64,000 nucleotides of DNA, taken from NCBI GenBank assembly GCA_026421245.1, contig JAPKDJ010000010.1:1-64000 (forward strand). The letters are read 5' to 3'. Both the position numbers and the translations under genes were made by a program. This DNA comes from Akkermansiaceae bacterium. GTDB taxonomy: Bacteria > Verrucomicrobiota > Verrucomicrobiia > Verrucomicrobiales > Akkermansiaceae. The notes beneath the pieces were generated by a model. The model searched no databases and was not told where the DNA came from. It saw only the letters and a program-made list of their open reading frames with translations. Position 1 is the stretch's first letter; the number at the start of each line of letters is the position of its first letter. Shown piece by piece: positions 54,942 through 64,000 of the stretch.

Positions 54942-55178
54942 GAGAGCCTAGAGTTCGCTATTCTGGGATTCGACGCAAGCCATCCTGTTGCTGGAAAATG
55001 CTAATGAGATCTACGTTTCCGCGGTAGTTTCCCGCTGAAGATCTCTCCTGTTTACGGGTTCCTAGCCCTCCGCACCACGTTCACCCCTTTTCCATTTTAC
55101 CTGTGATTGAAATTTGGCGCGCTTTGGCCCGTATCCTCTTCCGTCGTTTACGCGATCAGATCTAAAATAAGGAATCCC

Positions 55179-57767
55179 ATGAAATTAAGAACTATCATCT
55201 TCAGAAGCAGCTTCGCGGTTGCGACGTGTTATGCTGAGCAACCAGGCGAAACCATCTACCAGCAGGGGTTCCTCTCCATCGAGGAGGCACACAAGTCACT
55301 TGAGTTGCCGGAAGGATACTCATTGGAACTCATCCTGAGCGAGCCACACATCGAAGAACCGGTAGCCTGTGCCTGGGATGGCAATGGCGTGCTCTATGTC
55401 GTTGAGATGCGCACCTACATGCAGACTGCCGATGCCACGGGCGAGCAGGAACCCCGGAGCCGGATCTCTCGTCATGAGGACACTGATGGCGATGGAAAAT
55501 ATGACAAGCATAGTATCTTCATCGACAATATCCTCCTACCACGTGCCGTTCTACCTCTCGACGATCGTGTGATGGTTCACATCACCAACACGCTCGATTT
55601 GTGGAACTACCGAGACACCGACGGAGATGGCGTAGCTGACGAGAAGGTCAAGGTTTACGACGGTGGCCACCGCGGTGGCAACATGGAACACCAACCCAGT
55701 GGCCTGATCTGGAATCTCGATAACTGGATCTACATCACTTACGAAAACCGGCGCTACCGCTTCACGGATGACAAGCTTGTGATGGAGCGCATCCCCCGTG
55801 GCGGGGGGCAATGGGGATTGGGTCAGGATGATTGGGGAAGAATCTACTATTCGACCGGGGGCGGTGAGAATCCCGCCTTCTCTTTCCAGCAGCCCCCCGC
55901 TTATGGCTTGCTGGGGTTACCTGGTGAAACGGCGGGAGATTTCCGAGCCGTCTATCCGATTGCAGCGATCCCAGACGTGCAAGGCGGCCGGGGACGTGTC
56001 GGCTCCAACGGCGGTCTGAATCGCTTCACCGGCTGTGCCGGACAGGGCGTATTTCGCGGGGACCGCTTACCCGAGGAGATGCGTGGCGACCTGTTTATTC
56101 CGGAGCCGGTTGGGCGGCTCATCCGGCGGGCCAAGGTTGAGCGCAAGGACGCTAAAACGGTGCTCACCAATGCACATCCAAAGTCAGAGTTTATCCGCAC
56201 ACAGGATGCCAACTTCCGCCCCTTAGGTGCCGAAACCGCTCCGGACGGCACCATGGTGTTCATCGACATGCATCGTGGGATCATCCAGCAGGGGAGCTGG
56301 ACCCGCCCGGGAAGCTACCTCCGCGGCATCATCGACAAGTGGGGGCTCGACAAGAACATCGGCAAGGGGCGTCTCTATCGTCTTGTGCACAAGGATTTCA
56401 AACCGGGTCCACAACCTCGCATGCTTGAGGAATCGACCATCGAACTGGTGACGCATCTCTCCCATCCAAACGGTTGGTGGCGAGACACCGCGCAGAAACT
56501 CATTATCCTTCGCAAGGACCGCGCCTCCGTGGTTCCGGCATTGAAAGAACTCGCTCTCAACGGGAAATACGAACTCGGTCGCGGACACGCGCTCTGGACC
56601 CTAGAAGGAATCGGGGCCATTGATGGCACGACTGTTGCGGCCGCATTGCAGGATTCGTCCGCCTTCGTCAAGGTGCAGGCTTTGCGGGTGGGCGAGGCCC
56701 TGATGGGAACAGGTGACCAGGCGGTGGTCTCTGCTCTCATGCAACTTGGCGAATCGCGCGGGAAACCCGATGCGGAAGTGTCGACCCAATTGATCAACTC
56801 GATCACGATCAGCGGGACCGGCAACGCCGATTTACAAGCTCTGGCCGATGCCACAGCGCAGGCCTTCGCAGACAATGAAGCGGTCAAGGCGGTGGTGCGG
56901 ATGGGTGAGAACTTACGGGCACAGGCTCGTGCTGCGGCCAAGGCTCGCGAGAAGAACGTCCAGCTTGCCCGTTCCATGGAACACGGAAAAACCATTTTCA
57001 GCCAGCTCTGCTACACCTGTCACGGGGCGGATGGCAAGGGCACTCCGGTGCCGGACATACCCGGTCAGACGCTAGCTCCTTCCATGATGGGTGCGTCGCG
57101 AATCATCGGCAACGGAAACACCATGGTCCGCACCATCCTGCATGGCCTGACTGGCCCGCTCGATGGCAAAACTTATCCGGGAGTGATGGCACCCATGAAT
57201 TCACAGGATGATCAGTGGATTGCAGATATTGCCACCTACGTGCGGAATAGTTTCGGCAACAAAGCATCGCCGATTACCAAGGATTTCGTAGCGGCAATAC
57301 GGAAGAATTCGAAGGAGCGGATAACTCCGTGGACCATGCCGGAACTCGAAGCGCTCAATCCCCCGGTTCTGGTGAATCGTAAATCATGGCAGCTGAGCGC
57401 CAGCCATGGTGGAGATGGATGCAAGAACGCGGTCGACGGTGATAGCAAGAGCCGGTGGACAACGAACGGAAATCAAACTCCGAATCAATGGTTCCAGATC
57501 GAGTTACCGAAGGTCTCGAAGGTGAGCGAAATCATTCTCGACAGCCGTGATTCCGGATCCGATTACCCTCGTGGTTTCGAGGTGACAGTCTCGCTGGATG
57601 GCAAGGGGTGGAGCAAGCCACTCGCCAAGGGATCCGGGAATACTGCGCTGACCACGATTGGCCTTCCCCGTGCGGAGGCGAAGTTCATTCGGATCACGCA
57701 GACTGGATCGGCAGACGGCAAATTCTGGTCCATTCATGATCTCCAGATCAAGGGGAAGGAACTCTAA
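55179..57767 (+). CDS. propeller dehydrogenase-like protein with HEAT, cytochrome c and discoidin domains
   Basis: An 862-residue exported protein. The start is fixed by an AAGGA ribosome site eight bases before ATG 55179. The leader 'LRTIIFRSSFAVATCYAEQ' is short. The propeller has 'LPEGYSLELILSEPHIEEPV', 'WDGNGVLYVVEMRTYMQ' and 'EDTDGDGKYDKH'. The HEAT-like region has 'HPNGWWRDTAQKLIILRKD'. Cytochrome c follows with C611-Y-T-C-H615 and a Met-containing segment 'GVMAPMNSQDDQW'. The C-terminal F5/8-type-C domain ('CKNAVDGDSKSRWTTNGNQT', 'FQIELPKVSKVSEIILDSRD') could bind a polysaccharide. It is the full-length relative of the cytochrome-less protein at 33333. Confidence 0.88.
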   Translation: MKLRTIIFRSSFAVATCYAEQPGETIYQQGFLSIEEAHKSLELPEGYSLELILSEPHIEEPVACAWDGNGVLYVVEMRTYMQTADATGEQEPRSRISRHEDTDGDGKYDKHSIFIDNILLPRAVLPLDDRVMVHITNTLDLWNYRDTDGDGVADEKVKVYDGGHRGGNMEHQPSGLIWNLDNWIYITYENRRYRFTDDKLVMERIPRGGGQWGLGQDDWGRIYYSTGGGENPAFSFQQPPAYGLLGLPGETAGDFRAVYPIAAIPDVQGGRGRVGSNGGLNRFTGCAGQGVFRGDRLPEEMRGDLFIPEPVGRLIRRAKVERKDAKTVLTNAHPKSEFIRTQDANFRPLGAETAPDGTMVFIDMHRGIIQQGSWTRPGSYLRGIIDKWGLDKNIGKGRLYRLVHKDFKPGPQPRMLEESTIELVTHLSHPNGWWRDTAQKLIILRKDRASVVPALKELALNGKYELGRGHALWTLEGIGAIDGTTVAAALQDSSAFVKVQALRVGEALMGTGDQAVVSALMQLGESRGKPDAEVSTQLINSITISGTGNADLQALADATAQAFADNEAVKAVVRMGENLRAQARAAAKAREKNVQLARSMEHGKTIFSQLCYTCHGADGKGTPVPDIPGQTLAPSMMGASRIIGNGNTMVRTILHGLTGPLDGKTYPGVMAPMNSQDDQWIADIATYVRNSFGNKASPITKDFVAAIRKNSKERITPWTMPELEALNPPVLVNRKSWQLSASHGGDGCKNAVDGDSKSRWTTNGNQTPNQWFQIELPKVSKVSEIILDSRDSGSDYPRGFEVTVSLDGKGWSKPLAKGSGNTALTTIGLPRAEAKFIRITQTGSADGKFWSIHDLQIKGKEL

Positions 57768-59658: not shown

Positions 59659-62600
59659 ATGAACCCAATCCACACCCTCCTGCTCTTCGCAGCTTCCACC
59701 TTCTTCCTCTTCGGCCACGGGACCGTGACCAGCCCAATCAGCCGGGTTTATACCATCTACCAGGAAGGCCCGGACTCACCGGAGACCCCTTCCGCGATGG
59801 CTGCAATCGCCCTCGCCGGGACAAATCAATATTACACTTGGAACCAAGTCTCAAAGAACATCGCGAACTACGCCGACCCCGACCTCGCCACCACCTATTC
59901 TTCCGTCATCCCAGATGGAAAATTGGCTTCAGGTGACAGTGGCTCCGGCTTGAATTTTTCCGGCATGGACCTCGTCTCGAATACTTGGGATTGGCCCGCC
60001 ACCCCGGTGAGCGCGGGCGTCCTGCCCATCACCTGGACCGCGACCGCACCTCATGACCCCTCTTATTTCAAAGCTTGGATCACCACTGCCGACTACGATC
60101 ACAAGCAACCAATCTCGTGGGACAAGATGGAATTCCTCGGACAAATCAATTCAGGGATCGGCGGCTTCACCACCTCGGGCAATGAATATCTCTTCAACGT
60201 CACCCTCCCCGAGCGCACGGGCCGTCACGTCCTTTACATCGGTTGGCAACGGATCGATCCCGTCGGCGAATGCTTCTTCTCCACCTCTGACATCCTCTTC
60301 GGAGATTCCATTGATCCAGCCGCCCCCCCGGTGGTGAGCATTACGAGTGGAACCGTCGTAGAGGACGCAGATTCGATTGATCTCACCATCTCTCTAAACC
60401 GTGTTGCGAATCCAGACGAAACAGCCTCTGTGAACTACACCACTTCGAATGGTTCGGCAGGAGTCTCCGACTTCACCTCCTCCTCCGGAACCCTAACCTT
60501 CGCAGCCGGAGAACTGAGCAAAACAATCACCCTCTCCATCATCGATGACGCCGAAGAGGAGACCGCCGAAATCTTCATGGTGACCCTGAGTTCACCCGTC
60601 AATGCCACCCTCGGAGCTGCTACCGCCAATGTCACCATCACCGATGATGACGCCCCACCCCCGCCAGCCGATCCCGGCTCGGTCATCTTTGAAAAAACCG
60701 CAGACTGGGGAAGCGGTTACCAAGGATGGCTGCGCATCACCAACACCGGCACCGAAGCCTGGACCAACCCCACCGTCACTTTTGATCTCAATCAACCCAT
60801 CAGCTTCCTCGGACCCGGAACCGAAATCAGTGACGGCGCAGGAGGCTGGACCGTCACCGGGATTAATCAAACCATCGCCCCCAGTGAGATCTTGAGTCTC
60901 GACTTCGTCATTCAGCCCGTCTTTGCCGCCGATCCCCGGGGCCCTGCGAACGTGAAGATAAACGGAGCTGTCCTTGGCGATACTCCACCAAGCATTTCCA
61001 TCAGTGACACCTCGGTCCCCGAAGGAAACAGCACAGACGCCACCGCCGTCATCGACCTCACCTTGAGCAAAGCCGCGACTGAAGCAATTCACCTCGCTTA
61101 CACCACGGTTGATGGATCGGCAGTCGCTGGAACAGACTACCGAAGCACCTCCGGAACAGTCGTTTTCGCAATTGGCGAGACAACAAAACAAATCTCCGTT
61201 TCTTACGACGGCGACACCATTGCCGAAGCGGACAAGGACTTTCAAATCCTCCTCTCCGGCGTAACCGGCCAGGATCTCCCGACCTTCACCAACACCAGTG
61301 CCAACGTCACTTTCATCGATGATGATCGCCCCGCCGTCATGACTGCAACCAGTGACATCGTTATGGAAGGCGACAACGGAACGACAGATTTGACCTTCAA
61401 CGTCAACCTCAGTCGCGCGCCTTTGCCCGACCAAGTTGTCTCCGTGAGTTACCACGCTCACGGCCACGGTGCGACGCCTGGCATCGACTTTAAAAAGACC
61501 CACGGCACCTTGACCTTTGCACCCGGCGAGTCTTCCAAAACGATCACCGTCCCCGTCATTGGCGACACCGTGGATGAGAAACTTGAGCTCCTCATGCTTC
61601 ACTTTTCCCTTCCGGTTGGACTCATTATGAACACCTCGGAAGTGGTTGGGCAGATCATTGACAACGACATCGGCACCAGTGGCTTCGGCAACCAAAGAGT
61701 CGTCGCATACGTCGATGCCACTAGCGGTGCTCCCGTCTTTCCTCCAGCGGATCGTGTCACTCACATCATGTATGCCTTCGCCAATCTGAATGCCAATGGC
61801 ACGCTCACGATTGCAGGTCCGGGTCTCGCAGGCTTCACCGCATTGAAGACTCAAAACCCCGACCTCAAAATCGGCCTCTCCATCGGAGGATGGACCTGGT
61901 CGGATCACTTCACCGCAGTTGCTGCCAGCCCGACCCTGAGGCAAACCTTCGCCACCGCATGCCGAAACATCATCGAAACAACAGGGATCGATGGCATCGA
62001 TATCGACTGGGAATGGCCCGGCGTCGCCGGTGGCCCGGGAACTACTCCCTCAGCCCGAGACGGCGCAAACTACACCCTCCTCTTGCAAACCTTGCGCAAT
62101 GAATTGGACGACCTCGAAGCCGATGATGGCATCGAAAAACACTACGAGATCACCGCCTTCACCACCGCCAGCCCCGCAGGGATTGCCCAACTTGAATTGT
62201 CGGCCCTGTCCGGGATTTTTGACTTCGTCAATGCCCAGGCCTACGACCTGCATGGTCCTTGGAATCCTGTCACCGGCCACAATGCCGGACTCCATCACAA
62301 CTCCGCCGACCCCACCGACAACCGTCTCAATATCGAGGTCATCCTCGGCCAATACCTCGCCGGCGGATTCACCAAGGACCAACTGCTCATCGGAGCCCCC
62401 TTTTACGCCCGCACTTTTAATGGCACCGCCAACACTGCGAGTGGAGCTTTCCAAACTCACAATGGTAGCGGAGCCACACCCCTCTACCGTGACCTTGGAT
62501 CTCGACTGGCGAACCAAGTCCGCCATTGGGACCCCATCGCCAAAGTTCCTTTTCTCTACAATCAAACGACCGGCGAATGGACCTCCTATGACGATCCTCA

Positions 62601-63099
62601 AGCAATGTCTGAAAAAGCATCCTACAGCATCGAGGAAGGATTCGGCGGCGTGTATTATTGGGAAAGCTCTGGCGACACCGCCGACCGTCAGCTCCTCACC
62701 ACCATCTCCGACACCCTTGCCTATCCCCAGACTGATACCGATGAAGACGGGATCCTCGACAGCTGGGAAAGGACTCACTTTGGTGACCTCACCACCGCCA
62801 ATCAGACCACCGACTGGGATCTCGACAGATCCGCAGACATTGCCGAGTCCCACTTCCTCACCGACCCCAAGGACCACACAATCTTCCCCAACATCCAGTC
62901 CATTCCCATCAACTCAGACGGTCACTTCGGCACCTTCCAAACCGTCACCGGAGTGACCTACCTCATCGCGCGTTCCCTCAGCCTCATCGACTGGGAGCCA
63001 CACGGCAGTGTCTTTGTCGGCGACGGCTCCACCATCATCATCACCTACGAACCCACCCAAGATCACCTCTACTTCCGAATCCAAGCCATCGGGAGATAG
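59659..63099 (+). CDS. secreted AA10-type LPMO - CBM2-like - Calx-beta - GH18 chitinase fusion
   Basis: A 1,146-residue chitinolytic enzyme. The signal peptide ends before His20 (FLFG|HGTVTSP), so the mature N-terminus would be the copper-binding His of an AA10 LPMO; the second His is H132 in 'TATAPHDPSYFKAWIT', and 'GECFFSTSDILFGD' supplies the axial aromatic. Calx-beta repeats lie at about 220-335, 448-555 and 560-670; a CBM2-like domain with 'GYQGWLRITNTGTEAWTNPT' lies at about 340-443. The GH18 barrel (about 678-1010) has 'KIGLSIGGWTWSDHF', the catalytic D778-G-I-D-I-D-W-E785 and 'QAYDLHGPW'. The end has a Ca-loop 'DTDEDGILDSWERTHFGDL' and a C-terminal beta domain. It would oxidise and hydrolyse chitin outside the cell. 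Confidence 0.92.
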   Translation: MNPIHTLLLFAASTFFLFGHGTVTSPISRVYTIYQEGPDSPETPSAMAAIALAGTNQYYTWNQVSKNIANYADPDLATTYSSVIPDGKLASGDSGSGLNFSGMDLVSNTWDWPATPVSAGVLPITWTATAPHDPSYFKAWITTADYDHKQPISWDKMEFLGQINSGIGGFTTSGNEYLFNVTLPERTGRHVLYIGWQRIDPVGECFFSTSDILFGDSIDPAAPPVVSITSGTVVEDADSIDLTISLNRVANPDETASVNYTTSNGSAGVSDFTSSSGTLTFAAGELSKTITLSIIDDAEEETAEIFMVTLSSPVNATLGAATANVTITDDDAPPPPADPGSVIFEKTADWGSGYQGWLRITNTGTEAWTNPTVTFDLNQPISFLGPGTEISDGAGGWTVTGINQTIAPSEILSLDFVIQPVFAADPRGPANVKINGAVLGDTPPSISISDTSVPEGNSTDATAVIDLTLSKAATEAIHLAYTTVDGSAVAGTDYRSTSGTVVFAIGETTKQISVSYDGDTIAEADKDFQILLSGVTGQDLPTFTNTSANVTFIDDDRPAVMTATSDIVMEGDNGTTDLTFNVNLSRAPLPDQVVSVSYHAHGHGATPGIDFKKTHGTLTFAPGESSKTITVPVIGDTVDEKLELLMLHFSLPVGLIMNTSEVVGQIIDNDIGTSGFGNQRVVAYVDATSGAPVFPPADRVTHIMYAFANLNANGTLTIAGPGLAGFTALKTQNPDLKIGLSIGGWTWSDHFTAVAASPTLRQTFATACRNIIETTGIDGIDIDWEWPGVAGGPGTTPSARDGANYTLLLQTLRNELDDLEADDGIEKHYEITAFTTASPAGIAQLELSALSGIFDFVNAQAYDLHGPWNPVTGHNAGLHHNSADPTDNRLNIEVILGQYLAGGFTKDQLLIGAPFYARTFNGTANTASGAFQTHNGSGATPLYRDLGSRLANQVRHWDPIAKVPFLYNQTTGEWTSYDDPQAMSEKASYSIEEGFGGVYYWESSGDTADRQLLTTISDTLAYPQTDTDEDGILDSWERTHFGDLTTANQTTDWDLDRSADIAESHFLTDPKDHTIFPNIQSIPINSDGHFGTFQTVTGVTYLIARSLSLIDWEPHGSVFVGDGSTIIITYEPTQDHLYFRIQAIGR

Positions 63100-63333: not shown

Positions 63334-64000
63334 CTATTCACCGGTGGCACGGACTCGATAGAAGAATTTTTCGCTGCCTGCAGCAGCTCCGGGGTCGGTG
63401 TAGGATTGAATCTCGGATTCCGCCAACAGAAAATCTTCGATCTCCAGCCATCCGCCAGGCTCTCCGGTGGGGAGCATCGTTGTGCTGCGCTCAATAAAAT
63501 AGGTTCTTCCGACCTTAGCTTGGAAGCTGAAGGTCACGTCGTTGGATTGTGAATCCACCGAAATTTCCGTGATGACAAGATCACTATTAGCTCCTGCGTC
63601 GATGTCCAGCTTTGCATAGTCCAGACTGCTCCAGCGTGCGTTGCCAGTGCCCTGGCTCTTAACTTCGACATAGTGGTCGAACCCAGGTCCGAGCTCGGCC
63701 ACGCCGCCCAAATCATCAAGAGCAAATTCCCAACTTTGCGCGGCATCTAGATCGTCTTCGGAGTGAGGTTGCATTTCTCCGATTTGTTGTCCATCGACGA
63801 AGAAGGTCAGGTCGTATCCAGAGGTTTCTGCAGCGCCGTTATCATCGAGGTTGTAGAAATCGATGCTGAAAATGAAGTTGTCGTTACGACCAACAGACTC
63901 CGGCAAATTAAAGTGCCATCGCATATTGGGGTCACCGCCGGTCAATGCCCTATCGTAGTAGCGCTCATTGGCTGCCACAATACCGACGGGATCGTAATCA
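63334..64000 (-). CDS. C-terminal part of a large exported surface protein (LamG/PA14-like beta domain)
   Basis: The minus-strand frame is open to the right edge, so the gene begins outside the window (the ATG-like start near 63978 is internal). Visible parts are a beta-rich domain 'DNFIFSIDFYNLDDNGAAET' and 'GYDLTFFVDGQQIGEMQPHS', then 'DHYVEVKSQGTGNARWSSLD', and a final domain 'LVITEISVDSQSNDVTFSFQ' and 'VGRTYFIERSTTMLPTGEPG' ending 'SEKFFYRVRATGE'. That last domain is the common C-terminus of secreted verrucomicrobial proteins that compare measured values, also seen at the end of the chitinase. I do not recognise a catalytic part. It is convergent with the chitinase gene. Confidence 0.7.
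   Translation of the reverse strand, partial: DYDPVGIVAANERYYDRALTGGDPNMRWHFNLPESVGRNDNFIFSIDFYNLDDNGAAETSGYDLTFFVDGQQIGEMQPHSEDDLDAAQSWEFALDDLGGVAELGPGFDHYVEVKSQGTGNARWSSLDYAKLDIDAGANSDLVITEISVDSQSNDVTFSFQAKVGRTYFIERSTTMLPTGEPGGWLEIEDFLLAESEIQSYTDPGAAAGSEKFFYRVRATGE

Follow-up and report, generated by a model that had tools for sequence, protein, structure and literature searches.

The window (the whole stretch of 64,000 nucleotides analyzed here, from contig JAPKDJ010000010.1 of an Akkermansiaceae bacterium) carries near its right end a single complete open reading frame for a protein of 1146 amino acids (Table 1), exactly at the coordinates and on the strand proposed by a previous sequence-only reading. 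Pfam scanning placed its domains in the order signal peptide, AA10, Calx-beta, CBM2-like, Calx-beta, Calx-beta, GH18, a weak TSP3 stretch, and a C-terminal domain. The AA10-to-GH18 part of this order is the same as in the sequence-only reading, while the TSP3-like stretch and the C-terminal domain of about 60 residues were absent from it. Based on these domains, the gene is predicted to encode a secreted chain composed of a putative chitin-cutting copper enzyme (LPMO) and a classical chitinase. The start codon at 59659 is preceded by no clear Shine-Dalgarno sequence, and the n-region of the signal peptide is atypical in having neither Lys nor Arg.

Table 1. Features of the AA10-GH18 gene. Positions are those of the window. 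The boundaries of the Calx-beta and CBM2-like modules were taken from Pfam scans of separate segments.
Feature	Residues	Position	Strand	Evidence
AA10-GH18 bicatalytic secreted protein (predicted), 1146 aa		59659..63099	+	Single complete ORF; co-linear orthologues elsewhere
Signal peptide	1-19	59659..59715	+	Hydrophobic run just ahead of HGTVTSP; predicted cleavage before His20
AA10 LPMO domain	20-212	59716..60294	+	PF03067, E 2.7e-36; model pLDDT 86.5; Z 22.8-24.1
Calx-beta 1	226-331	60334..60651	+	PF03160, 5.2e-17
CBM2-like module	342-437	60682..60969	+	PF00553, 25.8 bits (isolated segment)
Calx-beta 2	446-556	60994..61326	+	PF03160, 1.9e-16
Calx-beta 3 (matched core)	580-654	61396..61620	+	PF03160, 5.5e-11
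GH18 chitinase domain	680-1006	61696..62676	+	PF00704, E 3e-68; Z 38 to 1itx and 6kst
GH18 catalytic motif DGIDIDWE	778-785	61990..62013	+	Translation
TSP3-like Ca-binding stretch, sub-threshold	1026-1042	62734..62784	+	PF18884, 0.038
C-terminal domain of about 60 aa		62911..63096	+	Recurs on dozens of the genome's proteins

The AA10 match, looked for across residues 20-215, covers the whole PF03067 profile (1-183 of 183). The histidine at precursor position 20, previously proposed as the copper-ready N-terminus, directly follows the predicted signal peptide, and the HG terminus of the mature protein is kept in every relative read; the second histidine then proposed, at precursor position 132, lies within a conserved TAPHDPS motif. 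By phmmer against solved structures, with ScLPMO10D (7zjb), 6if7, CbpD (8c5n), and CjLPMO10A (5fjq) as the top matches, both residues (His1 and His113 of the mature protein), which would form the histidine brace, were aligned with the histidines of solved AA10s. His1, His113, Glu185, and Phe187, the last of which we take to be the axial residue of the AA10 copper site, are invariant in all 25 verrucomicrobial sequences aligned. Mature Cys186 (precursor residue 205, about 60271-60273), which adjoins this Phe187, is Val or Ala in all the aligned relatives.

The structure of the protein was modelled. In the full-length model (pLDDT 72, pTM 0.39) the AA10 part was poor (pLDDT about 30-40), and this model was therefore used only for GH18, the AA10 domain being remodelled alone on the alignment of 25 sequences (mean pLDDT as in Table 1, pTM 0.86). 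Residues 1-196 of the latter model align end to end with solved copper AA10s (6if7, 7zjb, 7okr, 8c5n, and 5fjq) at Z 22.8-24.1, the nearest being ScLPMO10D, Tma12, CbpD, AsLPMO10B, and CjLPMO10A.

Both signatures of GH18, SIGG (SxGG) and DGIDIDWE (DxxDxDxE), are intact, and the complete catalytic motif reported earlier was read at the same residues. Its three Asp and one Glu are invariant across six orthologues. The closest solved structures by sequence are ChiW and ChiL, and the TIM-barrel GH18 part of the model aligns with the chitinases 1itx and 6kst.

Between the two catalytic domains, the three Calx-beta segments score 62.4, 60.6, and 43.0 bits against the Pfam cutoff of 27. The score of the CBM_2 match is 21.3 bits in the whole protein (residues 342-436), below the cutoff of 24 that the isolated segment exceeds, and 47.8 bits for the corresponding module of one orthologue (L121). 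CBM2a has three canonical surface binding Trp. Upon alignment with typical CBM2 modules of the same class, only the first of the three (DWG) was found to be kept, the SLW/FW and SWN positions being replaced. The module, aptly called CBM2-like in the sequence-only reading, thus appears to be a diverged CBM2, and its affinity is uncertain because two of the three canonical Trp are lost. The TSP3-like stretch downstream of GH18 is more pronounced in the orthologue L120 (PF18884, 5.7e-9).

The intact layout was found in a total of six genomes including that of the window, which span two families of the order. The co-linear orthologues are L119 (55% identity to the window protein), L118/L004 of the same genus (51%), L003 of the cultured strain Persicirhabdus sediminis (50%), L120 (49%), and L121/L005 (44%). 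The conservation of the same order in six genomes excludes chance. The seventh copy is frameshifted: in G600 (L126, G600:C23:79500-84500) the AA10 frame breaks off while still within the domain, and a 994-aa frame with GH18 follows, which may represent an error or decay.

In the phylogenetic trees, the Calx-beta-type AA10 domains form a clade with 100/100 support, and so do the co-linear GH18 domains, that of G600 included. These two clades fit with one origin of the AA10-GH18 fusion and joint inheritance of its parts. Within the window's genus, the genomes G607, G620, and G721 (loci L006, L007, and L009) carry a short AA10-Calx-CBM2 form that likewise has the C-terminal domain; these three genomes, 81-93% complete, gave no GH18 match at any position. 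Since the short forms nest within the fused clade of the AA10 tree, for which the internal support is moderate, this position suggests that they lost the chitinase. The LPMO can thus be of use even where its chitinase is lacking.

The C-terminal domain shows the pattern Y.I..S.DL..W ... FYRV, and also ends the convergent neighbour (63334-63549, - strand). A total of 51 matches were detected in the window's genome, and 23 of 59 Verrucomicrobiota genomes carry matches. In 26 of the 29 matches read, the domain ends 0-8 residues ahead of the stop codon. No Pfam or NCBIfam family was found for it. It probably serves for surface sorting or as a terminal module, and possibly is a module so far undescribed.

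The single AA10 match and the single GH18 match in the window's genome are both located in this gene, and GH20 matches are also present, with a GH20 domain on another contig. No counterparts of the flanking ORFs were found beside the orthologues, except for one weak shared match of an ORF about 10 kb upstream, and thus there is no operon context. A secreted-type protein with DUF7133, cytochrome c, and F5/8 type C domains is encoded upstream (55107-57767); this cytochrome c/DUF7133 gene was considered as a candidate redox partner and set aside, as it is not adjacent to the LPMO gene.

LPMO-chitinase fusions are known, as previously noted. JdLPMO10A (Jd1381) of Jonesia denitrificans is a characterised AA10-CBM5-GH18 fusion, with a reported intramolecular synergy by which it outperforms every mixture of its separate domains, and just one bicatalytic LPMO had been characterised as of a 2023 review (PMC10154629). 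JdLPMO10A and the window protein share an N-terminal AA10, a C-terminal GH18, and a binding module between them within one secreted chain. However, the AA10 of JdLPMO10A (5aa7, 142 residues) is distant from that of the window (Z 14.3 vs 23-24 for the nearest structures), and JdLPMO10A contains CBM5 and is devoid of Calx-beta, whereas the window protein has three Calx-beta modules, a divergent CBM2, and the C-terminal domain. On account of this distance and the different layout, the window fusion likely arose independently.

The AA10s of ScLPMO10D, Tma12 (6if7), CjLPMO10A, and CbpD are aligned end to end with that of the window at 33-39% identity, but the solved chains in these entries have no GH18 partner, and the cysteines of the solved AA10s (7zjb) are absent at the aligned positions of the window AA10. 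Likewise, ChiW (Paenibacillus, 5gzt/5gzu; a two-GH18 chitinase of the cell surface), ChiL (6kst), and ChiA1 (1itx) share GH18 with the DxxDxDxE motif (31-34% identity, Z 37-38), but their chains include no LPMO.

Within Verrucomicrobiia, six other loci (L109, L112, L188, L190, L193, and L198) also combine an N-terminal AA10 and a hydrolase (GH18, GH9, or GH5) in one chain. Their AA10 domains belong to a clade different from that of the window and their GH18 domains, where tested, fall outside the window's clade; CBM2 replaces the Calx-CBM2-Calx-Calx spacer, although L193, L198, and the L190 group also have Calx-beta. The unusual domain order claimed in the sequence-only reading thus holds for the Calx-beta/CBM2 layout and not for the AA10-GH18 combination as such, which recurs in the class. 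No description of the Calx-CBM2-Calx-Calx spacer or of its protein family was found in the literature searched; the AA10-GH18 fusion is already known, and the layout is new within that literature. On the Pseudoalteromonas plasmids NZ_CP091443.1 and CP076682.1, a single region some 3 kb long matches both AA10 and GH18 in two pieces, annotated on NZ_CP091443.1 as separate GH18 and LPMO genes.

Taken altogether, the gene product is probably a secreted bicatalytic enzyme for tethered oxidative and hydrolytic attack on chitin. Cleavage of the signal peptide would expose the N-terminal His, which with His113 would bind copper; the AA10 domain would then oxidatively cut crystalline chitin, probably at C1, and GH18, tethered through the spacer of Calx-beta modules and divergent CBM2, would hydrolyse chains from the ends newly made by AA10. 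The Calx-beta modules are probably Ca-stiffened spacers. Of this model, the domains, the active-site residues, the folds, and the retention of the layout are observed, and chitin as the substrate, the C1 regioselectivity, the Ca binding, the synergy within the chain, and the localisation are proposed. The assignment to chitin is based on the strong AA10 and GH18 matches with catalytic residues intact, on the structural closeness of the AA10 to the chitin-oxidising CjLPMO10A and CbpD (as known from published work) and of the GH18 model to ChiA1, ChiL, and ChiW, on the finding that no other AA10 or GH18 was detected in the genome, which also has GH20, and on a layout kept at 44-55% identity. The proposal of tethered synergy, which the sequence-only reading also treated as inference, follows the Jonesia precedent. 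The loss of two Trp from the CBM2-like module, the same-genus forms devoid of GH18, and the signal peptide without a basic n-region count against this model.

Both catalytic domains could be active on another main substrate such as cellulose, mixed glycans, or GlcNAc-containing cell wall. CBM2 is common on cellulases, and AA10 of this class is also fused to cellulase-family domains of GH9 or GH5 (see below), but in the window protein AA10 is joined to GH18, of which no other was detected in the genome, and the nearest solved AA10s include two chitin-oxidising enzymes, so that we judge another main substrate unlikely. A role mainly as an adhesin or colonisation protein of the GbpA type, with catalysis being secondary, would agree with the Calx-beta and CBM-like modules, which are typical of surface proteins, and with the presence of the C-terminal domain on many of the genome's proteins; the full conservation of both active sites despite the divergence among orthologues makes it quite improbable. 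The same-genus relatives without the GH18 part could also be explained if the fusion were a neutral linkage of two secreted enzymes with no advantage from tethering, but this is scarcely probable given the AA10-GH18 combinations in separate lineages of the trees and the synergy in the Jonesia case. That two genes were joined by misassembly or misannotation, conceivable for a draft genome in 192 contigs, is refuted by the same intact order in six genomes including the cultured P. sediminis.

For the bicatalytic chitin-degrading enzyme here proposed, the window family provides several naturally occurring AA10-GH18 enzymes whose spacers look rigid, together with same-genus forms without GH18, and comparison of the fused and GH18-less forms would be a direct test of whether LPMO-hydrolase tethering pays on crystalline chitin.

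AA10 is uncommon in the phylum, being detected in 8 of 388 genomes sampled at the phylum level, 19 of 387 at the order level, and 28 of 384 at the class level. When the order and class samples are pooled, 28 of the 49 AA10 ORFs are at least 700 aa long, compared with 3 of 110 in a control of genomes reached via GH18 relatives, which is an unmatched convenience sample mostly of actinomycetes. Another catalytic domain is present in 27 of the 28 long ORFs, and the remaining one is truncated where its contig stops. The reading favoured long ORFs and, in the class sample, drew on AA10 ORFs of at least 490 aa (part of the shorter ones may lie at contig edges), so that these figures give only an approximate fused share for the AA10 proteins of the class as a whole.

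Besides the window family, the partner is GH18 in L109, L186-L189, and L195, and GH18 of another type in L116; GH9 in L110, L111, L117, L190-L192, L194, and L197; and GH5 in L199. Chains with more catalytic domains are AA10-GH5-GH18 (L198, 2031 aa), AA10-CBM2x3-GH18-GH9 (L112 and L200), AA10-PL7-like-GH9 (L196), and AA10-GH9-GH18-GH18 (L193, 2268 aa, in a single-contig genome). Along the AA10 tree the catalytic partner changes at least eight times. As a generalization, to which we give about even weight, AA10 of Verrucomicrobiia would serve largely as the N-terminal part of very large multicatalytic enzymes, some of them uniting three or four catalytic domains in one chain, in which the partners (GH18, GH9, GH5, and PL7-like alginate lyase) have been swapped repeatedly. 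On this view, the window protein would represent one lineage among these multicatalytic AA10 chains. In the literature searched, no description was found of LPMOs that share a chain with two or three further catalytic domains, and these are the more novel part compared with the window fusion; the whole set of AA10 chains, holding between two and four catalytic domains each, offers ready material for the same question of tethering on other polysaccharides. L116 represents a separate fusion in the GH18 tree, and its chain is composed of AA10-Calx-GH18, in which GH18 is of the other type noted above, with Calx-beta and CBM2 modules after it.
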